This document shows, one piece after another, positions 7,260-22,795 of a DNA stretch of 24,654 nt. The position numbers were made by a program, and so were the translations under genes. The DNA is from a virus: positions 1 through 24,654 of the IMG/VR virus record IMGVR_UViG_3300008116_000274; one strand, 5' to 3'. The stretch's first letter is position 1, and every line of letters begins with the position of its first letter. The notes beneath the pieces are model-generated. The model worked only from the letters and a program-made list of their open reading frames with translations. It was not told the origin of the DNA and did not search any database.

Positions 7260-7703
7260 ATGTCACAAACTACTTGGAGCGGACCACTCGCCTCTGGCGA
7301 CCGCAACGCAGGCGAAAGCGGCGGCCCGAACATCGGCCTCGTCACTCTTAGCCAAACCGCGCTGATCAACTTCGACGCCACACTGGTACAAAACGCGACG
7401 TTCAACATCCCTGCGTCTTCGCAGATTGTTGACTTCTACGTTGACGTGCTGACGGCGTACGACAGTGCAACGTCCGCGACGCTTTCGGCTGGTACCGCTT
7501 CTGGCGGCACCCAGTACCTGAGCGGCGTGAGCGTCAAGACGGCGGCTCGCCGCTCGAATGGCTTCAGCGCTGCGCAGCTTGCTGCAATGGACGATGTTGG
7601 TACGAACCGCTCGGTCGTCGCAACTGTAACCTCCGTCGGCCAGCCGACTGCAGGTCAGGTTCGCGTCACCATGCTGTACGTTCAAACAACGGCTGATGAC
7701 TAA
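7260..7703 (+). CDS. Putative structural protein, beta-rich (147 aa)
   Basis: The product is 147 residues, Ala/Thr/Ser/Val-rich and low in charge, with alternating strand-like segments (FNIPASSQIVDFYVDVLTAY, VRVTMLYVQTT). The N terminus (SGPLASGDRNAGESGGPNIG) resembles openings of minor capsid proteins. ATG 7260 follows AAAGGAG at 7246-7252. The gene lies between two strong hairpins, so its transcript level may differ from that of the capsid gene. No domain name can be given with confidence. Position directly after the capsid gene and composition suggest a head or decoration protein, but a head-tail joining role is also possible. Confidence 0.7.
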   Translation: MSQTTWSGPLASGDRNAGESGGPNIGLVTLSQTALINFDATLVQNATFNIPASSQIVDFYVDVLTAYDSATSATLSAGTASGGTQYLSGVSVKTAARRSNGFSAAQLAAMDDVGTNRSVVATVTSVGQPTAGQVRVTMLYVQTTADD

Positions 7704-10378: not shown

Positions 10379-10698
10379 TGCCGCTGTATCTCAACACACG
10401 CGGCAACCCGACACTGGGCATCGGCATCTGCGGACGCTGCAGCCGCAAGTTTCCGCTGCACATGCTGCGTCCCGATTACAATTCACCGGGCCTGCGCGTC
10501 TGCGAGGCTGATCTCGATCACCTCGACCCGTACCGCTTGCCCGCACGCCAGACGGAGAACATCACGCTTCCGTTCATGCGTACGGACACGCCCATACCCA
10601 CCAACCCCAGCGGCGTCATTGCTCAGAATGGGGACCAGTTCCTCATCACTGAAGACGGCAATGATTTCCTAATTTTCTTCGAGGATGACGAGCTGTGA
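10378..10698 (+). CDS. Zinc-ribbon-like small protein, second of a tandem pair, with acidic tail (106 aa)
   Basis: The first 65 residues are clearly related to the upstream gene: FLDTRGKKWLAVGLCDRC in that gene versus YLNTRGNPTLGIGICGRC here, then RKFPLHMLRPDYNSPGLRVC and DLDHLDPYRLPARQTEN. The CxxC knuckle and third Cys are kept. The C-terminal extension (about residues 70-106) is new: GVIAQNGDQFLITEDGNDFL, ending FFEDDEL, a repeated 'NGDxFLITEDG' pattern that I have seen in other phage virion proteins as a short beta repeat. The ATG overlaps the preceding stop as TAATG and the end overlaps the giant fibre gene, so the pair is translationally linked to the fibre. A neck or fibre-attachment role is inferred from position. 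Confidence 0.75.
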   Translation: MPLYLNTRGNPTLGIGICGRCSRKFPLHMLRPDYNSPGLRVCEADLDHLDPYRLPARQTENITLPFMRTDTPIPTNPSGVIAQNGDQFLITEDGNDFLIFFEDDEL

Positions 10699-13600
10699 GC
10701 GTTCCTACCAACCTAATTCCAACGCTAATCACCGGCCTCCAAGAGTACACCGGTAGCAGCACACTCGGCTACATGCCGTACATCCTCGACGGTCGGACGT
10801 ATAAGGTTCAATTTGCGAATATTGCGGCCGTTGGCGCGGTTCCGTCCTCGCGCGTCATTGCTGCGGGCACAGGCCTTGCGGGCGGCGGCGATTTGTCGGC
10901 CAATCGCGTCATCTCGATCGCCAACGGCGGCGTCGGCTTCGACCAACTGGCCTTGAGCGGCGTCACGCAAGGCACGTACGGCTCGGGATCTGCCGTGCCG
11001 ATCCTGACCGTCGACAGCAAGGGCCGCATCACGAGTGCCACGACGGCACCCCTCGACGTCACGGGCTTCGTGCCCACGTCGCGCACAATTACGGCCGGTG
11101 ACGGCCTCACAGGCGGCGGCTCGCTTGCCAACAACATATCACTCGCGGCCAATTTCTCCGCAACAACGCCATCGGCACTCGGCACTGCGTCGGCGGGCAC
11201 GGCCATCACCGTATCGCGTGGGGACCACGTCCACCCAGCGGTGAACCTGTCCGACACCAGCCAAACCCAAGGCGCGCTCCCCTTGGGTCGCGGCGGCACT
11301 GGCGACGCCCTCTCTCCCGTTGCCGGTGCCGTCGTATACTCGACGGGCTCAAAGTTCGCGCTAACCAACCCCGGCATTGTGGGCCAAGTCCTCGTATCTA
11401 ACGGCACGGACGAGCCCCAGTGGCAGACGATCCTCGGGACCGGCACGGTGACCTCGGTTTCCGTGAGCACCGCTAATGGCTTCGCGGGCTTTGTCGCGAA
11501 CCCCGCCACGGTTCCCGATATCACGCTCTCGACGACCGTCACTGGTATGCTCAAGGGCGACGGAACTGGCATGTCTGCGGCCACCGCAGGCGTTGATTAC
11601 GTTGAGCCGGGCGCATACACCGCCAGCGGCCTCACGATGGCCTCTGCGCGGCTTCTGGGCCGCACTACGGCCTCGGTCGGCGCGGCGCAGGAAATAACCG
11701 TCGGCACGGGCCTGACGCTCTCCGGCGGCTCGCTCATAAACGCCGCGCCCGATCAGACCGTCAGCCTGACGGCAGGCACCGCAATCTCGGTCACAGGCAC
11801 GTATCCGTCGTTCACGGTTACCAACACCGCGCCAGACCAAGTCGTGTCTCTGACAGGCGCAGGCACGACGACCGTCACCGGCACGTACCCTAGCTTCACA
11901 ATCACATCGAACGACAGCACGTCAGGCACCGTGACCAGCGTCAATGCCAGCGGCGGCACAACGGGCATGTCGTTCACCGGCGGCCCTGTCACGTCGGCAG
12001 GCACACTGACCCTCAACGGCACACTCGCTGTGTCCAATGGCGGCACAGGCGCAACCGACGCGGCCACTGCTTTAACGAACCTCGGCGCGTATCCCGCGAG
12101 CAACCCCGCCGGATACACGACGAACGTGGGTACGGTGACGTCAGTCTCAGGCACCGGCACCGTCAGCGGCCTGAGCCTGAGCGGGACCGTGACGTCCGCA
12201 GGCTCGCTGACACTCGGTGGGACGCTCGCCGTCCTTCCGTCCAACTTCGCGTCGCAGACGGCCAACACGGTCCTCGCGGCACCGAATGGTTCGGCAGGCG
12301 TGCCGACGTTCCGCAGCCTTGTTGCCGCAGATGTGCCCACGCTCAACCAGAATACGACCGGAACGGCCTCAAATGTCACCGGCATCGTCGCCGTGGCCAA
12401 TGGCGGCACCGGCGCGAGCGTAGCGGGCACGGCGCGCACGAACCTCGGCGCGGCGGCCTCTGGGGCCAACACCGACATCACGTCCATCGCGCTCACCACA
12501 GGCACGATCAGCACGTCGCCAGTCAACGGCACCGACATCGTCAACAAGGCGTATGCCGACAGCATCGCGTCGGGCATCAACTTCCACCAGTCCGTGCGCT
12601 TGGCGACGGCTGCGGCTTTGCCTGCGAACACGTACAACAACGGCACCAGCGGCGTTGGCGCAACGCTCACGGCCAATGCCAACGGCGCGCTTACGGTCGA
12701 TGGCGTAGCTGCCGTTGCGGGCAACCGCATCTTGGTCAAGAACGAGGCAACGCAGGCCAACAACGGCGTCTACACCGTAACGCAGGTCGGCGACGGCTCG
12801 ACGCCGTACATCCTAACCCGCGCCACTGACTTCGACAGCGCAGGCACTGGCGTTGACCAGATCGACGCGGGCGACTTCTTCCTCGTTACGGCGGGATCGA
12901 CGCTGGCCAACACGTCGTGGGTACAACAGACACCACTGCCGATCACTGTCGGAACGACGGCGATTGTCTTCTCGCAGTTTGCCGCACCTGTTCTGTACTC
13001 GGCGGGCACGGGCCTGTCGCTGACTGGCACGACCTTCAGCATCACGAACACAGGCGTAAGCGCATCGACCTACGGCAGCGCGTCGTCCGTGCCTGTCATC
13101 GCGGTCAACGCGCAGGGGCAGATCACGTCGGCCTCGGCGTCTTCCATCGCCATAGCGGCCTCCCAGATCACGTCTGGCGCACTTGCCATCGCCAATGGCG
13201 GTACAGGCGCGACGAGCGCGGCAACGGCCCTGACGAACCTCGGAGCGTACCCCGCGAGCAACCCGTCAGGCTTCACGTCGAACACAGGCACCGTCACTAG
13301 CGTCAACTTGACGGCTGGCACAGGCGTCAGCGTCTCTGGCGGCCCGATTACGGCATCCGGCTCCATCACCGTCACCAACACCGCTCCCGATCAGGTCGTC
13401 AGCCTGACAGGGTCTGGCGCTACGACCGTGACGGGCACGTACCCGAACTTCACCATTTCATCGACTGCGGGCGGCGCAGGCACCGTGACGAGTATCAACG
13501 TCAGCGGCGGCACCACCGGCCTGACGACGTCTGGCGGCCCAGTTACAAGCAGCGGCACGATCACGCTCGCTGGCACGCTGAACGTCGCCAACGGCGGCAC

Positions 13601-16600
13601 AGGTGCAACGACACTGTCCTCTGGCTATCTGGTCAAAGGTAACGGCACATCTGCTGTCAGCGCGTCTGTGGTGTACGACAACGGTACGAACGTCGGGATT
13701 GGTACGGCGTCGCCGCAAGCACTTTTCACCATCTCGTCCGGTGCTGGAACGAAGGCTGTTTGGCAGACCACGCGAAGCTTTACGGTAAACCGCAACTTCC
13801 AACTAGCTGTCGATGAATATGTCGAAGGTGCGTTTACGATTACGCCAAGCACAACGCTAGGAGGCTCAACCTACACGACCCCTACGGTTGCGGTTACTGG
13901 CGCGGGCAACGTCGGGATTGGTACGTCTTCGCCCTCAAGTCGTCTAACTGTCGTGTCGTCTACCTCGTCGCTGGCCCAGTTTACCGGCCCAGAATATTCG
14001 CAGATACGCCACTCAGACGGCACGCGTACGTTGTTCACGCAGGTCTTCAACAACGAGGCTCGGCTGTTTACCGAAACATCCACCCCGCTTACTTTCGGCA
14101 CCAACAACTCAGAACGTATGCGCATCACCAGCGCGGGTGATGTCGGTATTGGGACGACTTCGCCTAGTCAAAAACTTAATGTTGTTGGCAACACTCTTAT
14201 CCCCATCACTAATTCGTATTTCTGCTACACCAACGACTACGGTATCGGCACTCCCGATAGCAACGGCCTTCAGGTCTTCGCGTCGAATGGTGATGTTCTG
14301 CGCTTCGGCCACCGCACTGGTGGGACAACCTTCACCGAAGACATGCGAATTGCCTCGAATGGCAACGTCGGGATCGGTACGGCTTCGCCGGGAGAAAGAC
14401 TTACTGTCGCGGCCACAGCAAACAATGCGGCCCGAATTACGTCAACGGCCACTACGACTGCATTGGTTCTTGACAATACCAACGCAAATGCTTGGGGTAG
14501 CAATATCGCTATTGCTACTGGCGGCACTACGGCGGGTTTCTTCGGCACAATCGGCTCTTTGCTTGGTAGCACAGCCCAAGACCTTGCTGTTTATGCCGCC
14601 ACCGGCAATGGTTTCCGTGTCTATACGAACGGAAATAACGAAAGGATGCGTGTCACCAGCGCGGGTCTCGTCGGGATTGGTACGGCTTCGCCAACTGCGG
14701 TACTTAACGTAAATGGCGCTGGGCCAATGGCGCGCTTCCAATCTGGTGCTGCTGCAGATGGCCGCATAGAGTTCGCGTACAACACAACCGACATTGGCTA
14801 CCTGAATATGGCTTCGGCAACTCAGCTTGAGTTGTATGGCCGTTCCGGCGTGGCTTTGGCATTTGGTGCTGGCGGCTCAGAACGCATGCGCATCACCAGC
14901 GCGGGCAACGTCGGCATCGGGACCGGTACGCCAGCACAAAGGTTAGATGTAACCGGCTCAGAAAACTCTGTCCAAGCGCGATTTGGGAGTGTCCCCGGTC
15001 GTGGGCTGACAATCGGAACAGCGGTAGTAACCGGCACAAATGATGCTGGTGTTGTTTTTAATGCGCCCACCACAGAAGGCACATTTATTTTCCAGACCGT
15101 GTCTACAGAACGTATGCGTGTCACCAGCGCAGGCAACGTCGGGATTGGTACGAGTTCGCCAGCGGCAAAGTTAGATGTAACTGGCCCAGATAATGGCGGC
15201 GGCGCAGGTGTTTTGGTGTACTCGGCCAACCGGACAGCTAACTTACAAATAGCGTTTAACAACATTACAACAACCGCCAATAGCGGCGCATTAACTCTCG
15301 CGGCAGGTGGTGCGACACCAGTTATATTCAACACCAACTCCACAGAACGCATGCGCATCGACAGCAGCGGCAACTTGGCCCTCGGAACATCAACAGCGGC
15401 TAATAGGCTTACTGTTTCCGCCGCAGGTTTGGGCATTACTGGCGGTAATGCCATTAACGGCACAAATATGCAGGGCATACGGCTGCAAAACACCCTAAAT
15501 GACAATAGTTCATTGGGCCTCTGGTTCGGCACAAATAATGTTCACTGGGCTGGTATATCTGGGCAACGCACAAATTTTGCAGGGGATTGGACTACAGATT
15601 TACGCTTTTACACCCATGAAGCAGCATTGGTTGATGTAACGTATGCGCGTGAACGCATGCGTATTGACGGCGCGGGCAACGTCGGTATCGGTACGACTTC
15701 GCCTGCTGGGAGATTTCACGCTCTTGGCCCTGCTGGCACAGACGTTTTGTACCGTCTCGAACCTGCATACACTTATGCCTCTAAGCTCCTCATCATTTCA
15801 GTAAGCTCTGGCGATGGTGGTATCCGATACGGCACAAGCAATGACCTGACCGTCCTGACCTATAGCACAATTCTGTTTAATACCGGCGCTATTAGTGGCA
15901 GCCTCGGCACTGAACGTATGCGCCTTAGCGATAGTGGCAACTTGGGGATCGGCACGAGTTCACCCGGCGCAAGGTTGGAGACTTTTAATAATTTAGGTGG
16001 CCAACAAGCCATCCGCATGAACACGAACTTTGCCGGTGGCAACTACGTCGATCTTAACCCGTTCATCAGCGGCGTGTCCAACGGCGGGTATTCTGTATCG
16101 CTTAACGGAGTTATCCAACAGGTAATCAGCGTTGGCGGCGACTTTGGGATTGGTATCAGTGCGCCAGCACGCAAGTTAGATGTTCGTTCAGGTTCTACAG
16201 CGGGGACAGTACAATTTTTATCTACAGCTACTACTGCTTACAGTTCGGCAGGGTATAACGGCGCTTCCGCACGGCTTCTCATGTATGGGGGCAATTCTGC
16301 CGGTTCGTTCACCGGGATGCAGTTCTCTCACGGTGGTAACTTTGAGGCATTCTTCGGCGCTGTCCAAAATGGTTCCAACACCGCTGACTTTGTATTCCAA
16401 GGGTATAGTGGTTCGTTCTACGCAGAACGTATGCGTATCAACGCTGCGGGCAACGTCGGGATCGGTACGACTACACCATCTACAAAACTTGTCGTGTCTA
16501 ACAGCGGCGCTGCGGGGCTGGAGTTTGAGCCTACTGGTGGCATTAACGGCGGTTCATACATTCAATCGTATAATCGAGGTACTGCATCTTACATTCACAA

Positions 16601-17246
16601 CACTAACTACGCATCGGCGCAAACTTGGTATGTCGGCAATGGCAGCAGGGCCATGGACCTCACCTCTAGCGGCCAGTTGCTAATTGGCACGACAACAGCC
16701 GTCCAGACGCTGACGATTGGAAGCACTGCTTCAACATCTTCCGGCATCAACCTACGCACAACGCAGACTGATTTCACCATCGTGCCAAGCAACAGTGCCG
16801 CTGGGGGTGTGACTATCGGCACAAGCTGGGTGTCTGGCGGTCAAGGTCCGCTAATCTTCACCAATGCTAACGGCGAGATAATGCGCCTTTCCGCAGCCAG
16901 AGGGTTGTCCGTCGGTACCACGACCGACGCTGGCGCTGGCAACATCCTCGCATCCGGCAACGTCACTGCGTACTCGGACATCCGCGTCAAGGACAACGTG
17001 GAACAGATTGCAGGCGCGTTGGATCGCATTCAGCGCATCCGTGGCGTAACATACACCCGCACAGACCTAGAGGACACAGAGCGCCGCTATGCAGGTGTCA
17101 TCGCGCAGGAAATTGAAGAAGTACTGCCCGAAGCGATTTTCGATAGTGGCGAACTGAAGGCTGTGGATTATAACGCCACAATCGGTTTGTTGATCGAAGC
17201 AATCAAAGAACTTACCGCCCGCGTGGCGCAACTAGAAGGAAAGTAA
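10695..17246 (+). CDS. Giant tail fibre with C-terminal S74 intramolecular chaperone (2183 aa)
   Basis: This is a very long fibre or host-recognition protein. Residues 1-40 (LIPTLITGLQEYTGSSTLGY, YILDGRTYKVQF) are the likely virion-attachment end. Residues 40-990 are Thr/Gly/Ser-rich fibre repeats, including GGTGATDAATALTNLGAYPA units and NTAPDQVVSL-TG blocks. A distinct domain with GNRILVKNEATQANNGVYTV lies near residues 625-765. Residues 995-2080 hold about 14 spaced copies of the ERMRITSAGNVGIGTTSP type. The end is a Peptidase_S74 chaperone: SDIRVKDNVEQI (Ser 2094), then YAGVIAQEIEEVLPEA and a final coiled coil (IGLLIEAIKELTARVAQLEG). S74 domains trimerise the fibre and usually cut themselves off at the Ser-Asp site. 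The GTG start overlaps the previous stop with GAGG 10 bases upstream. GC content falls markedly in the second half of the gene. Confidence 0.9.
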   Translation: MSVPTNLIPTLITGLQEYTGSSTLGYMPYILDGRTYKVQFANIAAVGAVPSSRVIAAGTGLAGGGDLSANRVISIANGGVGFDQLALSGVTQGTYGSGSAVPILTVDSKGRITSATTAPLDVTGFVPTSRTITAGDGLTGGGSLANNISLAANFSATTPSALGTASAGTAITVSRGDHVHPAVNLSDTSQTQGALPLGRGGTGDALSPVAGAVVYSTGSKFALTNPGIVGQVLVSNGTDEPQWQTILGTGTVTSVSVSTANGFAGFVANPATVPDITLSTTVTGMLKGDGTGMSAATAGVDYVEPGAYTASGLTMASARLLGRTTASVGAAQEITVGTGLTLSGGSLINAAPDQTVSLTAGTAISVTGTYPSFTVTNTAPDQVVSLTGAGTTTVTGTYPSFTITSNDSTSGTVTSVNASGGTTGMSFTGGPVTSAGTLTLNGTLAVSNGGTGATDAATALTNLGAYPASNPAGYTTNVGTVTSVSGTGTVSGLSLSGTVTSAGSLTLGGTLAVLPSNFASQTANTVLAAPNGSAGVPTFRSLVAADVPTLNQNTTGTASNVTGIVAVANGGTGASVAGTARTNLGAAASGANTDITSIALTTGTISTSPVNGTDIVNKAYADSIASGINFHQSVRLATAAALPANTYNNGTSGVGATLTANANGALTVDGVAAVAGNRILVKNEATQANNGVYTVTQVGDGSTPYILTRATDFDSAGTGVDQIDAGDFFLVTAGSTLANTSWVQQTPLPITVGTTAIVFSQFAAPVLYSAGTGLSLTGTTFSITNTGVSASTYGSASSVPVIAVNAQGQITSASASSIAIAASQITSGALAIANGGTGATSAATALTNLGAYPASNPSGFTSNTGTVTSVNLTAGTGVSVSGGPITASGSITVTNTAPDQVVSLTGSGATTVTGTYPNFTISSTAGGAGTVTSINVSGGTTGLTTSGGPVTSSGTITLAGTLNVANGGTGATTLSSGYLVKGNGTSAVSASVVYDNGTNVGIGTASPQALFTISSGAGTKAVWQTTRSFTVNRNFQLAVDEYVEGAFTITPSTTLGGSTYTTPTVAVTGAGNVGIGTSSPSSRLTVVSSTSSLAQFTGPEYSQIRHSDGTRTLFTQVFNNEARLFTETSTPLTFGTNNSERMRITSAGDVGIGTTSPSQKLNVVGNTLIPITNSYFCYTNDYGIGTPDSNGLQVFASNGDVLRFGHRTGGTTFTEDMRIASNGNVGIGTASPGERLTVAATANNAARITSTATTTALVLDNTNANAWGSNIAIATGGTTAGFFGTIGSLLGSTAQDLAVYAATGNGFRVYTNGNNERMRVTSAGLVGIGTASPTAVLNVNGAGPMARFQSGAAADGRIEFAYNTTDIGYLNMASATQLELYGRSGVALAFGAGGSERMRITSAGNVGIGTGTPAQRLDVTGSENSVQARFGSVPGRGLTIGTAVVTGTNDAGVVFNAPTTEGTFIFQTVSTERMRVTSAGNVGIGTSSPAAKLDVTGPDNGGGAGVLVYSANRTANLQIAFNNITTTANSGALTLAAGGATPVIFNTNSTERMRIDSSGNLALGTSTAANRLTVSAAGLGITGGNAINGTNMQGIRLQNTLNDNSSLGLWFGTNNVHWAGISGQRTNFAGDWTTDLRFYTHEAALVDVTYARERMRIDGAGNVGIGTTSPAGRFHALGPAGTDVLYRLEPAYTYASKLLIISVSSGDGGIRYGTSNDLTVLTYSTILFNTGAISGSLGTERMRLSDSGNLGIGTSSPGARLETFNNLGGQQAIRMNTNFAGGNYVDLNPFISGVSNGGYSVSLNGVIQQVISVGGDFGIGISAPARKLDVRSGSTAGTVQFLSTATTAYSSAGYNGASARLLMYGGNSAGSFTGMQFSHGGNFEAFFGAVQNGSNTADFVFQGYSGSFYAERMRINAAGNVGIGTTTPSTKLVVSNSGAAGLEFEPTGGINGGSYIQSYNRGTASYIHNTNYASAQTWYVGNGSRAMDLTSSGQLLIGTTTAVQTLTIGSTASTSSGINLRTTQTDFTIVPSNSAAGGVTIGTSWVSGGQGPLIFTNANGEIMRLSAARGLSVGTTTDAGAGNILASGNVTAYSDIRVKDNVEQIAGALDRIQRIRGVTYTRTDLEDTERRYAGVIAQEIEEVLPEAIFDSGELKAVDYNATIGLLIEAIKELTARVAQLEGK
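11744..13462 (+). repeat. Diverged direct repeats in the N-terminal half of the fibre gene
   Basis: Blocks encoding 'APDQxVSLT-G-----TGTYPxFT' begin near 11744, 11823 and 13377. Blocks encoding 'NGGTGA---A-TALTNLGAYPASNP' begin near 12033 and 13192, with a shorter relative near 12398. The copies are similar at DNA level but not identical, so they are old enough to have drifted yet could still recombine. Confidence 0.75.
13685..16720 (+). repeat. About 14 spaced GNVGIGT repeats in the C-terminal half of the fibre gene
   Basis: DNA close to AACGTCGGGATTGGTACG recurs near 13689, 13909, 14145, 14366, 14668, 14907, 15137, 15375, 15679, 15943, 16146, 16452 and, weaker, 16680. Spacing runs from about 200 to 306 bases. 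Each repeat is usually preceded by 'ERMRI-SAG' and followed by '-SP--KL-V'. The sequence between repeats varies in both length and content. Confidence 0.85.
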
Positions 17247-17753: not shown

Positions 17754-18112
17754 TTGAGGATCTCATCAGCCGCGTGTTCTACGCACGCAATGTCGCGCAC
17801 TTTGAGCACTGGCGCGCCAAGGGTGATGGGAGCTTCGCAAAGCACAAGACGCTTGGTCGGTTCTACGACGACGTGATCGACGCAGTCGACCGTCTCGTAG
17901 AGGCCTACCAAGGCGCGTTCAAACTCATCGGCAACATACCGGCCCCGAAGGTGTCTGAACGCGACGTGCTGAAGCTCCTAGAGGCCGACGCCGCGTGGAT
18001 CGAAGAGCATCACGAGGACATCTGCGAGGGCAACCGCGCAGTGGCGAACCTAATCGACGGTGTAACGGAGGTGTACCTCTCCGCCGTGTACAAGCTGCGG
18101 AACCTGAAATAA
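17750..18112 (+). CDS. DUF5856-like helical protein (120 aa)
   Basis: The product (120 residues) is nearly all helical. It starts with ISRVFYARNVAHFEHWRAKG, continues FAKHKTLGRFYDDVIDAVDR and LVEAYQGAFKLIG, and ends VANLIDGVTEVYLSAVYKLR. The His and Glu spacing in AHFEHW, KH, and EEHHEDI recalls a ferritin/Dps-like four-helix bundle, and I recall a phage family with this pattern named DUF5856. If correct it could bind metal or DNA, but no activity is known to me. The GTG start overlaps the previous stop by four bases and the stop overlaps the next ATG, so it is embedded in the coupled operon. Family recognition is moderate; function unknown. Confidence 0.75.
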   Translation: MIEDLISRVFYARNVAHFEHWRAKGDGSFAKHKTLGRFYDDVIDAVDRLVEAYQGAFKLIGNIPAPKVSERDVLKLLEADAAWIEEHHEDICEGNRAVANLIDGVTEVYLSAVYKLRNLK

Positions 18113-18339
18113 TGGACACCGCGACCCTCTTCACCGTCCTTGGCTTCGTTATCACCGCCCTGAGCTTCATCGGGGCGTTGATAACTGTTTGGGTGAACCT
18201 CACCAATAAGCTGACGCTGCTTGAGGCGCGTCTCGGCTTCGGTGACGAGAAGTTCAACACCATCGACGAGAGGTTCAAGGAGGTGATGATCCACCTCCGT
18301 CGGATCGAAGACAAACTGGATAACAAGGCGGATCGGTGA
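18112..18339 (+). CDS. Small membrane protein with coiled-coil tail (75 aa)
   Basis: The product has one N-terminal hydrophobic segment (about residues 5-28: TLFTVLGFVITALSFIGALI, TVWV) and then a charged coiled-coil tail (LTLLEARLGFGDEKFNTIDE, RFKEVMIHLRRIEDKLDNKA). This layout fits a small inner-membrane protein with a soluble helical domain, as seen in holin accessory proteins and in some spanin-like or anti-holin proteins. It is not a clear match to XhlA, whose membrane segment is at the other end. The start overlaps the previous stop (TAATG) and the end overlaps the next gene (TGATG). It opens a run of membrane and exported proteins that ends with the endolysin, so a lysis-related role is plausible but unproven. 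Confidence 0.75.
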   Translation: MDTATLFTVLGFVITALSFIGALITVWVNLTNKLTLLEARLGFGDEKFNTIDERFKEVMIHLRRIEDKLDNKADR

Positions 18340-19346
18340 TGAATAAAAGGTATTGGGTTCTTGTGTCTCTCGGCTGGTGTAGCGTGGCGCTTGCGCAGAC
18401 CGCGCCGGTGTCTGTGGCCCCGACGGAGTACGTGTACACCACGACAACGACCAGCACATCGGACAACACCAATACCAACACGAACAACAGCAATTCCACC
18501 AGCACGTCGACGAACACGAATAACAACAACAACACGTCCGCCAGCACGTCGACGAACACCAATACGAACTTCAACACCAACGAAAGCACCAGCACGTCGG
18601 TCAACACGAATAACAACGTGAATGCCAGCACGAGCACGTCGCTGAATACGAACAACAATAACAACGTCAGTTCGTCGACCAACACCAACATAAATCAGAA
18701 CACTGGGACGATGACCAACATCAACCAGAATACGAACATCAATTCTGGCACGATGACCAACATCAACCAGAATACCAACGCCAGCACATCCGAGGCGACA
18801 AACCGCAATTTCAATACGGACGTCAGCAACAGCACCGTCAATCAGACGGTCAACAGCACCGTAAACACCAACAACACGAACAACGACACCAGCACGATCA
18901 ACCAGACGACGAACAGCAACAACAATAACGTCAACCAGAACAACAACGTCAACGTCTCCGACAGCAAGAGCTACAGCGAGAGCGTCAATCGGCAGGTGAT
19001 CGACCAGAACATCAAGTCGCCACCGCCCAGCGCCATTGCGCCGTCCATGATGTCCTACAGCCAAGACCTCTGCACCACTGGCCAGAGCGGCGCAGTGCAG
19101 ACGCAAATCATCGGCCTGTCGGCTGGCCGCACCGTGCGCGATCAGAACTGCGAGCGGATGAAGCTGTCGAAGACCCTGTACGACATGGGTATGCGCGTCG
19201 CCGCCGTGAGCCTCCTGTGCCAAGACCCCCGCGTATTCGGCGCGATGGAGATGGCTGGCACGCCCTGCCCGTTCATGGGTTTGATCGGCGAGGAAGCCCG
19301 CGCCGCGTGGACTGAGAACGTCGAGCTTCGCCCTGTCGAGGACTAA
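18339..19346 (+). CDS. Exported Asn/Thr/Ser low-complexity protein with Cys-containing C-terminal domain (335 aa)
   Basis: The product begins with a signal-peptide-like segment (MNKRYWVLVSLGWCSVALAQ, likely cut after AQ). Residues about 34-215 are almost only Asn, Thr and Ser, with a 14-residue internal repeat (GTMTNINQNTN). The last 110 residues are a different, ordered domain: IKSPPPSAIAPSMMSYSQDL, then GAVQTQIIGLSAGRTVRDQN, CERMKLSKTLYDMGMRVAAV and MEMAGTPCPFMG. Four cysteines (about 245, 271, 294, 310) could form disulfides outside the cytoplasm. I recall this C-terminal domain joined to similar Asn/Thr tracts in cyanophage genomes, always without a function. ATG 18339 overlaps the previous stop; an in-frame GTG three bases earlier is less likely. 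It may be a virion surface protein or an envelope-located lysis or exclusion factor. Confidence 0.8.
   Translation: MNKRYWVLVSLGWCSVALAQTAPVSVAPTEYVYTTTTTSTSDNTNTNTNNSNSTSTSTNTNNNNNTSASTSTNTNTNFNTNESTSTSVNTNNNVNASTSTSLNTNNNNNVSSSTNTNINQNTGTMTNINQNTNINSGTMTNINQNTNASTSEATNRNFNTDVSNSTVNQTVNSTVNTNNTNNDTSTINQTTNSNNNNVNQNNNVNVSDSKSYSESVNRQVIDQNIKSPPPSAIAPSMMSYSQDLCTTGQSGAVQTQIIGLSAGRTVRDQNCERMKLSKTLYDMGMRVAAVSLLCQDPRVFGAMEMAGTPCPFMGLIGEEARAAWTENVELRPVED
18705..18779 (+). repeat. 42-base tandem repeat inside the Asn/Thr-rich gene
   Basis: Two nearly identical 33-base copies start at 18705 (GGGACGATGACCAACATCAA) and 18747 (GGCACGATGACCAACATCAA), giving a 42-base period. They encode GTMTNINQNTN twice. 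The surrounding tract (18440-18990) has many looser AAC/ACC/ACG-rich repeats. Confidence 0.8.
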
Positions 19347-19356
19347 GACATACGTC

Positions 19357-20997
19357 TTGCAGGCGGCCCTCCTGCTGACTTGCGCGACGCCTCTGCGTGC
19401 GCAGACCTATGAGCCTGCCTTAATTCCCCCGCAAATAAACGGCGCTCCCACAACGATGACGCCCCTCAACCTTGGCGACGATAACACGCGGAACGTAGCT
19501 CTTGGCTTTGAGTTTGAGTATTGGGGCCAGACGTTCACCGACGCGTGGGTGTCGTCCAACGGCTTCGTGTCGTTCCAGAGCGGCGCGCATCTGTGCTGCA
19601 ACGGCCAGCCCGTCGAACTGGCGCAGCGCAATACGATATACGCATATTGGTCTGACCTGATTAGCTACACCGGCAATCCATATTACCGCCGCGACGACGG
19701 CTCGATCCTCTTCGGCTGGTACGGCGTGAACGAGTTCGGCACGAACAACAGTAGCACCTTCGAGATCGGCCTGTTTGCTGATGGCAAGATACAACTGAAC
19801 TTCGGCAGTCTGGGCTTCTCCGGTCGGCGCGACTTTACCGCAGGCATCACCGGCCCAACTGCGGACGACAACATACCGCTTTTCTACGGTCGCAACGCGC
19901 AGTTCCTACAGAACCAGTCTGGCCTCTTGACTTGGGTTGCACCTGTCCCAGAGGTCGTGGCTGTTGACTGCAACGTGACGCCAATGGACCCAAGTTGCCC
20001 GCCAGCCGCCGTCAACGTCGGCGCACCTGATCCGACTGAGAGCGCGTTGGAGGCCGCCGTGGCCTCGGTCGAACAGGCGGCGATGGAAGAGACGCAGCAA
20101 GAAGTTGCGGTTGAAGACGTCGCCGACATCGAACAGGTGCTTGAGACCGCGCAAGAGGCGCTGGAGACAGCCGACGCGTCTGTCGAAGCCGAAACGGACG
20201 AGCCTGTCGCGGACGAGGAGCCTGCCGAGGAGGACACCCTTGAGGAGTTGACTTCGGAGCGGGATTTAGAAGATACCGGCTCCAATGCAGAGCGACTGTC
20301 GCCGGACGAATTGGCGGCACTGGCGGCGCAAGGCCCAGAGGACGCTACCGCTGACGAAACGGAAGCACTGGCATCACTAGAACTGGATGGCACAGAGAAC
20401 GCCGTAGGGGGCCAAGACGCATCGTCAGGCGCGTTGGAGCAGGAGGCATCCAATCAACTCGCTACGGCGCTGGAAGAAAGTGGGCAGCAATCCGCATTCT
20501 TTGAAGAGGCGGCAGAAGTCAGCCAAACATCGGCATTCGAGAACAGTTCACAGGCGTCGCAAAGTTTCGGCGGCTTCCAAATGCGCGTCGATTTCGGATC
20601 AAGCACTTCGGCTGGTGGTGGGGTTGGTTCTGGCGTAGGCTCATCGCCACTGGACGCTGTTGTCTCGGCAAGCAGCCCCATGTCGATGTCCACCACATTC
20701 GAGATACTGAACAATATCGGCGGTCAAAGCAGCGCAGCGCCCGTCGCAACAACCGCGTCATCTGAAAAATCAGAAAGCGAAATGGCAGAAGGTCAGGGCG
20801 AGACCATCGCGGAGATGGGTGCCGTGCCGGGCTTCGCTGCGTACACACAGGCCTCATTACAAGATAGGGCTGACTTTTACGCAATCCGTGATATATACAG
20901 CCGACGTAGGCTGCGAGACGCAAACTTTGAATTGTATCGCATGATGCAGACAAACGATGCCCGTTGGCAGGAGATGGTAGATGAGCAGTACAGATGA
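19357..20997 (+). CDS. Exported nidogen-like (NIDO-type) protein with acidic linker and conserved C-terminal helix (546 aa)
   Basis: From TTG 19357 the product starts with a hydrophobic segment (MQAALLLTCATPLRAQ) that looks like the end of a signal peptide. Residues about 45-195 form a beta domain with VALGFEFEYWGQTFTDAWVS, SNGFVSFQSG, NTIYAYWSDLI, DGSILFGWYGVNEFGTNNSS and FTAGITGPTADDN, reminiscent of nidogen-type extracellular domains. Residues 225-355 are extremely Glu/Asp/Ala-rich and probably disordered. Residues 360-475 are Ser/Gly/Ala-rich. The last 60 (GFAAYTQASLQDRADFYAIR, RRLRDANFELYRMMQ) look like a conserved helical anchor. No ATG or GTG start fits. A CTG at 19333 would add SRTKTYV and give a normal basic signal-peptide n-region. 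The gene directly follows another exported protein. Its role is unknown: virion adhesin or envelope factor. Confidence 0.75.
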   Translation: MQAALLLTCATPLRAQTYEPALIPPQINGAPTTMTPLNLGDDNTRNVALGFEFEYWGQTFTDAWVSSNGFVSFQSGAHLCCNGQPVELAQRNTIYAYWSDLISYTGNPYYRRDDGSILFGWYGVNEFGTNNSSTFEIGLFADGKIQLNFGSLGFSGRRDFTAGITGPTADDNIPLFYGRNAQFLQNQSGLLTWVAPVPEVVAVDCNVTPMDPSCPPAAVNVGAPDPTESALEAAVASVEQAAMEETQQEVAVEDVADIEQVLETAQEALETADASVEAETDEPVADEEPAEEDTLEELTSERDLEDTGSNAERLSPDELAALAAQGPEDATADETEALASLELDGTENAVGGQDASSGALEQEASNQLATALEESGQQSAFFEEAAEVSQTSAFENSSQASQSFGGFQMRVDFGSSTSAGGGVGSGVGSSPLDAVVSASSPMSMSTTFEILNNIGGQSSAAPVATTASSEKSESEMAEGQGETIAEMGAVPGFAAYTQASLQDRADFYAIRDIYSRRRLRDANFELYRMMQTNDARWQEMVDEQYR

Positions 20998-21502
20998 GGA
21001 ACCCAAGGTCTCTTTCGACGAGAGCGGCTTTAGTTTCAACATTGGTGGTCTGAGCAGCGGCAAGATTGCCATTATCTTTGCTGCATTCTCAACAATCCTT
21101 GGCGGCCTGTGGGCTGGCTTCCAAGTGTATCAGCAGTTCTTGACCATGCAGGAAGTTACGGCTGCGTATGTGCCGCCAGACCTGTCTGGCATCGAGGGCC
21201 GCATCTCGGTATTGGACGAGCGCGTCACGAGCGTCGAACGTCTGACCAAGATCAACAGCGAAGCCCTGAATTACATGACTGGGTCGATCTCAAGCAGCGT
21301 CAGCGGTACACGCCAGACGGTCGATGCGGTGTCGAGCAGCGTCAGGAACAGTGACGCGCAGAACATGGCGATGCAGCGCGCTGTCATAGAACAACTGCGC
21401 CAACAGGATCAGGAACAACAGCGCCGGATCAAGGAGCTTGAGACCGAGACTGCTGAACGTATTCAAAAGACGCTGGCGAACCCGCTGGCAGGGAAGGACT
21501 GA
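20981..21502 (+). CDS. Single-pass membrane protein with long coiled coil (173 aa)
   Basis: The product has a short polar N terminus, one transmembrane segment at about residues 29-50 (IAIIFAAFSTILGGLWAGFQ, VYQQF) and a long Gln/Glu/Ser coiled coil (SGIEGRISVLDERVTSVERL, MQRAVIEQLRQQDQEQQRRI) to near the end. An 'AYVPPDLSGIE' segment joins the two. I recall the same membrane-plus-'PDLSGI' layout in conserved proteins of T4-like cyanophages. The 17-base overlap with the previous gene and the AGGAG at 20969-20973 support ATG 20981. With its membrane anchor and extended periplasm-length coil it could act like an i-spanin or a lysis accessory, but no lipobox or partner o-spanin was found. The topology is not certain. 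Confidence 0.75.
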   Translation: MSSTDEEPKVSFDESGFSFNIGGLSSGKIAIIFAAFSTILGGLWAGFQVYQQFLTMQEVTAAYVPPDLSGIEGRISVLDERVTSVERLTKINSEALNYMTGSISSSVSGTRQTVDAVSSSVRNSDAQNMAMQRAVIEQLRQQDQEQQRRIKELETETAERIQKTLANPLAGKD

Positions 21503-21504
21503 AG

Positions 21505-21981
21505 ATGGAAGATAAACTAATGGACGCGCGCATCAAGGCGCTCCTCATGGCTGCTCGGACGATGGCGTTCGTGATTTGCGCTATTACCTGCGCCATGATT
21601 GCTGGATTGTTCGTGAGCAACGAAGTGATAGATAACAAGGACGTCTTCGGCCTCCTTAGCTACGTCATGACCTCGGTCGTCGGCGCTGTCGCTGGCTCTT
21701 ACGCCACGCTGATGGGCATGAAGGGCGAACTGGTCCCACCACCACCACCGGAAGACCGCAACGACCCTGAACCAGACCCGCTACCGCTTACACCTGACAT
21801 GGTCGCGCCAAAGACGTATGACGACCAGCAGGCCACCGTCTTCATCCACACACCTGAAGAAGGAGACGATGACGATATGGAGCCGTGGGAGAAGTACCGC
21901 AACGATATGCGGTATGACGCGAATGGCGACGGTGTGGTCGACGCAGACGATTTCCCTGATTGGCGGAGTGCTGGCAAATGA
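21505..21981 (+). CDS. Holin-like two-pass membrane protein with EF-hand-type loop (158 aa)
   Basis: The product has two hydrophobic segments (about 17-38: RTMAFVICAITCAMIAGLFV; about 47-70: VFGLLSYVMTSVVGAVAGSY) separated by a short polar turn, as in small class II holins. The rest is unusual: a Pro-rich stretch (LVPPPPPEDRNDPEPDPLPL), a DDDDMEPWEKY acidic patch, and at residues 138-149 a loop DANGDGVVDADD, which fits the calcium-binding EF-hand or dockerin pattern (ligands at 1, 3, 5, 9 and 12). The gene sits directly before the endolysin, overlapping it by four bases, and follows AAGGA at 21494-21498. A holin or lysin-regulating role is likely from position and topology. The EF-hand-like loop is a clear sequence pattern but metal binding is not shown. 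Confidence 0.72.
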   Translation: MEDKLMDARIKALLMAARTMAFVICAITCAMIAGLFVSNEVIDNKDVFGLLSYVMTSVVGAVAGSYATLMGMKGELVPPPPPEDRNDPEPDPLPLTPDMVAPKTYDDQQATVFIHTPEEGDDDDMEPWEKYRNDMRYDANGDGVVDADDFPDWRSAGK

Positions 21982-22598
21982 GCATGATTGAACTTCAGAA
22001 GAAGATTGGCGTAACGGCTGACGGGGCTTTTGGCCCCGGCACGCTGAAGGCCGCTGCGGCCTATTACAAGCTGTCGCCCAACCGCGCTGCCCACTTTTTC
22101 GCTCAGTGCGCGCATGAAAGCGGCAACTTCAAGGCGTTCAGTGAGAACCTGAACTACGGCGCGAAGGGTCTGCGCGGCATTTTTGGGAAGTACTTTCAGA
22201 CAGACGCAATAGCCAAGGCTTATGAACGCCAGCCGCAACGCATTGCTAACCGCGCCTACGCCAACCGCATGGGTAACGGCGACGAAGCGTCGGGCGAAGG
22301 GTTCGCATACAAGGGTCGAGGCCCCCTCCAACTCACCGGGAAGAACAATTACCGCGCATTTGGCCGGTACATTGGTCGCGAACAGGAGATTTTGGACAAT
22401 CCAGACCTTGTGGCTACTGAACTGGGCTTTGAAAGCGCCCTGTGGTTCTTCGACGCAAACAAGCTGTGGGGCATCTGCGATCAGGGCATCAATGACGCCT
22501 CGATCCTAGCACTGAGTTCCAGAATTAACGGCAGCAAAAATCCGCATGGGTTGGCTGACCGCAAACTGAAAACCAAGAAATATGCTTCTTGGTTGTAA
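21978..22598 (+). CDS. Endolysin, GH19 chitinase-like muramidase (206 aa)
   Basis: The product should cut the glycan strands of peptidoglycan to release phage. The first 30 residues (IELQKKIGVTADGAFGPGTL, KAAAAYY) look like a short peptidoglycan-binding motif with the D-G-x-F-G-P-x-T signature. The GH19-type catalytic part follows: QCAHESGNFKAFSENLNYGA holds the likely catalytic Glu47 and Glu56, then FAYKGRGPLQLTGKNNYRAF is the family's best conserved block, and GFESALWFFDANKLW and RINGSKNPHGLADR complete the usual order. Length is typical for GH19 phage lysins. No signal peptide is seen, so export would need a holin. ATG 21978 overlaps the previous stop as ATGA and follows GGCGGAG. A second ATG at 21984 is possible, and an in-frame TTG at 21960 is unlikely. 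Confidence 0.92.
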   Translation: MSMIELQKKIGVTADGAFGPGTLKAAAAYYKLSPNRAAHFFAQCAHESGNFKAFSENLNYGAKGLRGIFGKYFQTDAIAKAYERQPQRIANRAYANRMGNGDEASGEGFAYKGRGPLQLTGKNNYRAFGRYIGREQEILDNPDLVATELGFESALWFFDANKLWGICDQGINDASILALSSRINGSKNPHGLADRKLKTKKYASWL

Positions 22599-22609
22599 GG
22601 AGAACGACT

Positions 22610-22795
22610 ATGCTTAATTTGAAGAAACTCATCCAGAAGGAAGCCGAGAAGGCCATCCTCAAGAAGGCTGTAGGCAAAATCCTGCCAATGGACGCGGAAG
22701 CAAAGCCTGCCCTCGGCTGGAAAGCCAAGCTTGCGGGCGGGTTAGCGGTCGTTGCGACGATCGCCGGTCTGCTTTCACAGTACCTTGCTGGGTAA
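22610..22795 (+). CDS. Small C-terminal-anchored membrane protein (61 aa)
   Basis: The product starts MLNLKKLIQKEAEKAILKKA, a strongly amphipathic Lys-rich helix, and ends with one hydrophobic segment (LAGGLAVVATIAGLLSQYLA). It follows the endolysin by 11 bases with a strong AAGGAGA ribosome site. A basic helix plus a single membrane segment could be a pinholin-like or antiholin-like partner of the lysis genes. The total length (61) is in the range of small holins, but with only one membrane segment and no known motif the call is by position and topology. An earlier in-frame start at 22589 overlaps the lysin end and precedes the ribosome site, so it is not favoured. Confidence 0.7.
   Translation: MLNLKKLIQKEAEKAILKKAVGKILPMDAEAKPALGWKAKLAGGLAVVATIAGLLSQYLAG

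Follow-up and report, generated by a model that had tools for sequence, protein, structure and literature searches.

Described systems and the locus under study

The closest described counterparts of the locus reported here are lysis systems of phages and one exported system of marine phages. In two-component spanins, such as Rz/Rz1 of phage lambda, the i-spanin has an N-terminal transmembrane segment (TM), a coiled coil and a conserved C-terminal motif, and its partner is a small lipoprotein, the o-spanin. In a survey of 677 phages, no spanin could be identified in 91 (PMC6139136), which leaves room for other systems. Pelagiphages and other marine phages carry curli (type VIII secretion) genes (PMC7029224, PMC9599517, PMC9004378), for which superinfection defense or sibling capture has been proposed (PMC9599517, PMC7029224). 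We analyzed a 24.7-kb stretch of DNA (the window) from an IMG/VR virus record, IMGVR_UViG_3300008116_000274, in which an initial annotation had described seven genes for membrane, exported and lysis proteins as one coupled unit. All seven open reading frames (ORFs) are present in the order g1-A-B-C-D-E-F, head to tail, at positions 18112-22795, and their starts and stops overlap or almost abut, as had been described, the exceptions being an 11-nt gap ahead of F and the start of B. Judged by sequence comparison, three of these genes, A-B-C, are a real unit that moves between unrelated phages; as far as our searches reach, it is an undescribed module of marine phages, and no description of the trio was found in the open-license literature. 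Export signals and TMs were judged from hydropathy and by eye throughout. The features of the cassette are as follows.

18112-18339, + strand: g1, a 75-residue protein with a single N-terminal TM and a coiled coil, the usual upstream partner of A
18339-19346, + strand: A, an exported Asn/Thr/Ser-rich protein of 335 residues with a conserved C-terminal core; ATG start; matches phrog_20531 at 4e-15
19005-19343, + strand: core domain of A with four invariant Cys; beta-hairpin and helices predicted
19333-20997, + strand: B, an exported protein; start probably CTG 19333, not TTG 19357
19405-19941, + strand: N-terminal nidogen-like beta domain of B (residues 17-195, numbered from the TTG)
20812-20994, + strand: conserved C-terminal motif of B, (F/W)Y...IY...DN...QY, behind a hypervariable acidic stalk
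20981-21502, + strand: C, with a TM near the N terminus and a coiled coil, ending in NPLAGKD; i-spanin-like build
21505-21981, + strand: D, a two-TM holin-like protein with an acidic tail and an EF-hand loop
21916-21951, + strand: EF-hand loop of D, DANGDGVVDADD, present in 26 of 26 homologues
21978-22598, + strand: E, a GH19 endolysin without signal peptide
22610-22795, + strand: F, a 61-residue protein with a C-terminal TM; a variable member, present in 53 of 60 contigs

The A-B-C trio recurs in unrelated phages

Six cultured pelagiphages carry the C-terminal 115 residues of A, with the four invariant Cys, as do two roseophages and three complete genomes of uncultured phages; matches also lie in at least 597 IMG/VR stretches and in a few contigs assigned to bacterial genome bins. 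This core has a mean column identity of 69% across 44 diverse loci. After A, 232 of 243 loci have a sizeable ORF in the place of B. A C-type TM protein that ends in NPL or NPM comes next, usually at once, at 47 of 52 diverse loci. The background frequency of such an ending was 3 in 6385 minus-strand ORFs. Holders of A-B-C include T7-like, T4-like and other pelagiphages as well as roseophages. Recurrence of the gene order in unrelated phages, which had been proposed as a check on the initial annotation, is thus strongly supported: the homologues are not scattered, and A and B retain their export signals in nearly every complete member examined. Three loci have three extra exported proteins of unassigned family between B and C (L167, 2970-4245; L169, 4971-6234; L256, 7239-8510).

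GTG 18336 is an alternative start for A in the window. Nearly all complete members of the A family have a signal-like N terminus, and their low-complexity tract varies from 12 to 496 residues, mostly with 40-80% Asn, Thr and Ser. In the AlphaFold2 model of the core (mean pLDDT 76.9, pTM 0.54), helices come after a beta-hairpin; the model has no fold match in the PDB, and its structural matches in BFVD are uncharacterized phage proteins only, one of them from the Achromobacter phage phiAxp-2. Most tested A proteins of pelagiphages, roseophages and Achromobacter phages match phrog_20531, a family with no assigned function. The likeness of the window to this family lies in the match of A given above; the difference lies in its partners, since B and C are not linked to phrog_20531 in the sources found. 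A pair of adjacent genes is common to the Achromobacter phages phiAxp-2, 2-1 and AXY1 (L257, 44598-45710; L258, 4269-5402; L259, 3409-4555); in phiAxp-2 both encode exported proteins, one of them a distant A, and the pair is not in a lysis region. The A proteins of L166, L168, L188, L238, L244, L250, L255 and L256 carry a terminal Gly-rich stretch with a leucine run, resembling a C-terminal sorting or anchor signal, in those lineages only. Four copies of A are found on separate contigs, presumably phage contigs, of the 4.1-Mb genome bin G008, which is labeled Maricaulis and is the source of L171.

The called start of B, TTG 19357, yields a signal peptide without positive charge. The upstream extension from CTG 19333 (LSRTKTYVLQAALLLTCATPLRAQ) gives a good signal peptide, is conserved in homologues and overlaps A; from its sequence, B probably starts at this CTG or at another non-ATG codon upstream of the TTG. 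AlphaFold2 modeled residues 17-195 as a mostly confident beta domain, with low confidence in the remainder, which is disordered apart from a C-terminal helix. The full model has no fold match in the PDB, and sequence searches against solved structures returned nothing useful. B of the window has no Pfam match and is not one of the two B proteins, among 56, that match NIDO (PF06119; best E-value 0.0019). The nidogen-like label, assigned earlier, is thus weakly supported. Most complete B proteins share the C-terminal motif behind unrelated N-terminal domains, of which NIDO and CBM_4_9 are recognizable; in some pelagiphages these domains are annotated as carbohydrate-binding. Searches of cultured phages with B or D as query gave no matches.

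Several existing labels within the trio look wrong, namely "lysozyme" for C, "OmpA family" for A and "transport protein tonB" for B. The proteins so labeled sit in L153 (CRP-810 gp51 and gp53), L152 (CRP-207 gp73) and L156 (the "tonB" of MW202481).

Gene order within the clade of the window

Using B as query, we retrieved 80 related IMG/VR contigs. A lies upstream of B in all 62 contigs with enough upstream sequence, and the order C, D, E after B is found in all 71 with enough downstream sequence; in these 71 contigs neighboring genes of this series overlap or lie at most 3 nt apart. The first gene, g1, was detected in 53 of the 62 contigs upstream of A, and TM-plus-coiled-coil proteins that resemble it also adjoin A in CRP-810 (gp54), L158 and L156.

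The surroundings of the cassette are less stable. To its left, the window encodes terminase, portal and head proteins and a fibre of 2183 residues (10695-17246), and more structural and fibre genes follow to its right. Of the two flanking genes, u3 persists in only 28 of 53 contigs and d1 in only 33 of 60, and neighboring structural genes are replaced in about half. Within the clade the A core has the highest mean pairwise identity (89%), followed by C (87%), the endolysin E (85%), the nidogen-like domain of B (78%), D (76%) and F (57%); adjacent structural and fibre genes reach 54%, and the hypervariable acidic stalk of B 45%. The invariant order, together with an identity higher than that of the swapped neighbors, indicates that movement and selection act on the block as a whole.

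The gene arrangement of the cassette is far from chance. D and E are fixed partners of the trio in this clade only, and g1 and F come and go. The proposal that all seven genes form one coupled unit therefore holds in part: the order A-B-C-D-E bears it out, but the coupling is unequal and only A-B-C travels between unrelated phages.

Lysis genes in the neighborhood of the trio

In order to characterize the neighborhood of A-B, we examined 101 flanking ORFs from 22 diverse loci. Phage_lysozyme was the commonest Pfam family, with 9 ORFs (a raw count, without a matched background), and the same set included four Rz-like spanins and two three-TM holins. The lysin beside A-B-C belongs to GH19 in the window and in L158; it is an M15 endolysin in HTVC023P, an amidase in HTVC033P, and a lysozyme in L156 and L253. 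A lysozyme is accompanied by a holin in L171 and by Rz/Rz1 in L234. Because these lysins are not homologous to one another, we regard the link to lysis, which the initial annotation had also drawn, as real. In MW202481 (L156), the order seen in the window (g1-A-B-C, TM protein, lysin) is rebuilt from non-homologous parts.

Votkovvirus S28C10, a T7-like phage, has the trio flanked by a holin-like gene on one side and the terminase genes on the other. Two relatives (TerL 77-78% identical) carry other genes at that place: HTVC200P (TerL 78% identical to S28C10), which has no trio, encodes a coiled-coil membrane protein with a TM plus a second, small and secreted protein, and the close relative HTVC119P a small TM protein. 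HTVC115P carries both the trio and a pair of the HTVC200P kind.

Auxiliary genes for a nuclease, Hsp20 and a lipase are also found near A-B. A class 3 lipase gene of L253 (8940-9713) is the second gene after C, between C and the endolysin gene, and lipases occur near other loci too.

The endolysin and the putative holin

E scores 43.6 bits against PF00182 (cut-off 25.5) and matches phrog_181 at 8e-55. It is a GH19 endolysin, as annotated earlier, and a plain member of the phage endolysins of this family with no notable difference. Since E carries no export signal it needs a holin, and D, the best candidate, is likely to be that holin from its sequence features. D resembles class II holins in its two predicted TMs, its likely N-in/C-in topology and its position beside an endolysin without signal peptide. 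It differs from them in matching no holin family (its sole PHROG match is phrog_38564, E-value 0.37) and in carrying an EF-hand tail predicted to be cytosolic. A D-like protein in L242 matches Phage_holin_3_6 below the cut-off.

The loop in D fits the canonical 12-residue calcium-loop pattern in every one of the homologues, though the linker that precedes it varies. Its Pfam score of 13.6 bits is below the gathering thresholds for EF-hands (25.4-25.9), and the D-like protein of L169 reaches 24.1 bits against a cut-off of 25.9. The EF-hand-type loop noted in the initial annotation thus stands by pattern and conservation, but falls short of the Pfam cut-off. The combination of two TMs and an EF-hand, with the loop at the opposite end, is seen near A-B in L169, L238, L242, L230, L166 and CRP-207, and the positive-inside rule places the loop in the cytosol for both forms. 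Two-TM EF-hand proteins with the loop at either end adjoin A-B-C in phages unrelated to one another, at L169 6752-7084, L238 5729-6073, L242 8232-8564 and L152 3870-4226. These recurring proteins are possibly calcium-responsive holins, and calcium entry may speed the firing of D. We found no description of EF-hand holins in the open-license literature.

Comparison with spanins and curli

By hydropathy, C has the single N-terminal TM and coiled coil that define an i-spanin, and so do its counterparts in 47 of 52 loci; its C-terminal motif is conserved as well. The trio further shares with two-component spanins the overlap of genes, the position in a lysis cassette and a Cys-rich partner. It differs in having no lipoprotein partner and, in place of a small o-spanin, two large exported proteins. 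A scan of the window for lipoboxes found no ORF that could encode an o-spanin, and the same scan over 59.6 kb of the 60-kb relative G001 gave no credible candidate (an antisense artefact and one implausible ORF); as positive controls, the lipoproteins of L176, L234 and L242 were recovered. In near relatives the best match to phrog_739, an Rz family, is a weak one, to a C-sized ORF of 173 residues (E-value ~0.02), in a search that all 14 control genomes match too, and C of L250 matches a spanin family at 6.8e-5.

One further candidate, at 7260-7703 of the window, matches phrog_20969, "Rz-like spanin", at 6e-9; it was rejected as a spanin since the protein is soluble and has neither TM nor lipobox. 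This ORF adjoins the major capsid gene, and the PHROG label looks wrong.

The curli genes of pelagiphages resemble the trio as a multi-gene exported module in phages of SAR11 that has been tentatively linked to the envelope or lysis. They differ from it in their CsgG secretion pore and curlin repeats, which A-B-C does not have. Models of CsgG and of the curlin repeat each matched none of 11 records (the window itself, four relatives and the genomes of six named phages with an A gene), and both were positive on the E. coli control. We therefore reject an identity with curli.

Possible functions of the trio

The gene order, its conservation, the predicted domains, the export-type N termini and the lysis neighborhood support, at a little under even confidence, a reading of A-B-C as a complex made late in infection that spans the envelope and, at lysis, disrupts or remodels its outer layers. 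We infer from these data the formation of a complex, its topology, its timing and its action on the outer membrane. In such a complex the TM of C would hold it in the inner membrane, with the coiled coil in the periplasm and the NPL end docked to A or B, and A and B would be exported by the Sec route. The disulfide core of A and the conserved C-terminal end of B would make up a shared body, from which the Asn/Thr/Ser tract of A and the beta-sandwich domain of B would reach out to the peptidoglycan, the outer membrane or the cell surface. Once D had fired as the holin and E had removed the peptidoglycan, A-B-C would break or remodel the outer layers and virions would exit. The trio would stand in for spanins in this clade and work beside them in others. 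A bolder version, to which we give little credence, is that A-B-C is an undescribed kind of envelope-breaching machine without an o-spanin lipoprotein, employed at lysis by many marine phages and triggered in this clade when the cytosolic EF-hand tail of the holin D senses the first seawater calcium to rush in across the damaged membrane, which would make lysis sudden.

Several observations weigh against a lysis complex. Neither A nor B has a lipobox, and the matches of C to Rz families may reflect only its coiled coil. L234 and L176 carry A-B-C alongside Rz-like and Rz1-like genes, so the trio is not a simple spanin equivalent everywhere; we therefore reject strict replacement of spanins as a general rule and keep it for this clade, where the trio may replace them. 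In L152, L153 and L158, from roseophages and one spring phage, the position of B is taken by a different exported protein. In Mosig the genes near the trio encode primase and ribonucleotide reductase, not a known endolysin. A distant A-like protein (phrog_20531) of the Achromobacter phage phiAxp-2 is encoded in a replication or early region, beside another exported protein, which calls for caution in tying A to lysis alone. Finally, the N-terminal domain of B looks like a surface-binding module.

This last property fits a surface adhesin or decoy, in which the lectin- or nidogen-like domain of B and the flexible tract of A, anchored by C, would be displayed by infected cells, keeping out competing phages or binding sibling cells to one another, the link to lysis genes merely reflecting late expression. 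The N-terminal domain of B is swapped between lineages (NIDO-like or carbohydrate-binding-like) while its C-terminal end is kept, A has a low-complexity exported tract, the functions proposed for the curli genes of other marine phages are of this kind (PMC9599517, PMC7029224), and the A-like gene of Achromobacter phages lies with that of another exported protein in the early region. Such an adhesin would have no outer-membrane secretion pore, as CsgG is missing; the nidogen-like domain is 78% conserved within the clade and so not diversifying; and lysis genes are frequent among the neighbors. We consider this reading less likely, and favor the lysis complex over a surface adhesin or exclusion system. 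A connection with host-envelope physiology rather than lysis, for example in nutrient uptake or in stabilizing the envelope before lysis, with the locus as a general hot spot for late genes, would agree with loci such as L168 and CRP-810, where no lysis gene is recognized close by, and with the assorted auxiliary genes near the trio. It is quite improbable, given that endolysins are the commonest annotated neighbors and that L156 rebuilds the order of the window from other parts.

The least probable reading, in our judgment, is that A and B belong to the virion, or are added to its exterior on the way through the periplasm at lysis, and so provide it with a carbohydrate-binding surface. The genes do sit between tail-fibre genes in the window and the beta domain of B would suit binding, but the export signals of A and B persist from lineage to lineage, C is anchored in a membrane, and the trio remains intact despite the swapping of the structural and fibre genes next to it. 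The export signals and this swapping also speak against A and B as ordinary tail proteins. Among the functions suggested in the initial annotation the envelope-spanning lysis complex is thus the favored one, and superinfection exclusion, adhesion and virion association are left as its rivals.

Implications

Little is known of the way in which SAR11 phages, and those of other marine bacteria, cross the outer membrane, and the clade of the window has no recognizable spanin. An ordered exported trio that recurs across unrelated lineages and has cultured holders makes the question of exit through the outer membrane testable. The trio also provides hypotheses on function for protein families that are now labeled hypothetical or misnamed lysozyme, OmpA or TonB. 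If D is indeed a calcium-responsive holin, the timing of lysis would be tied to the ion gradient of seawater.

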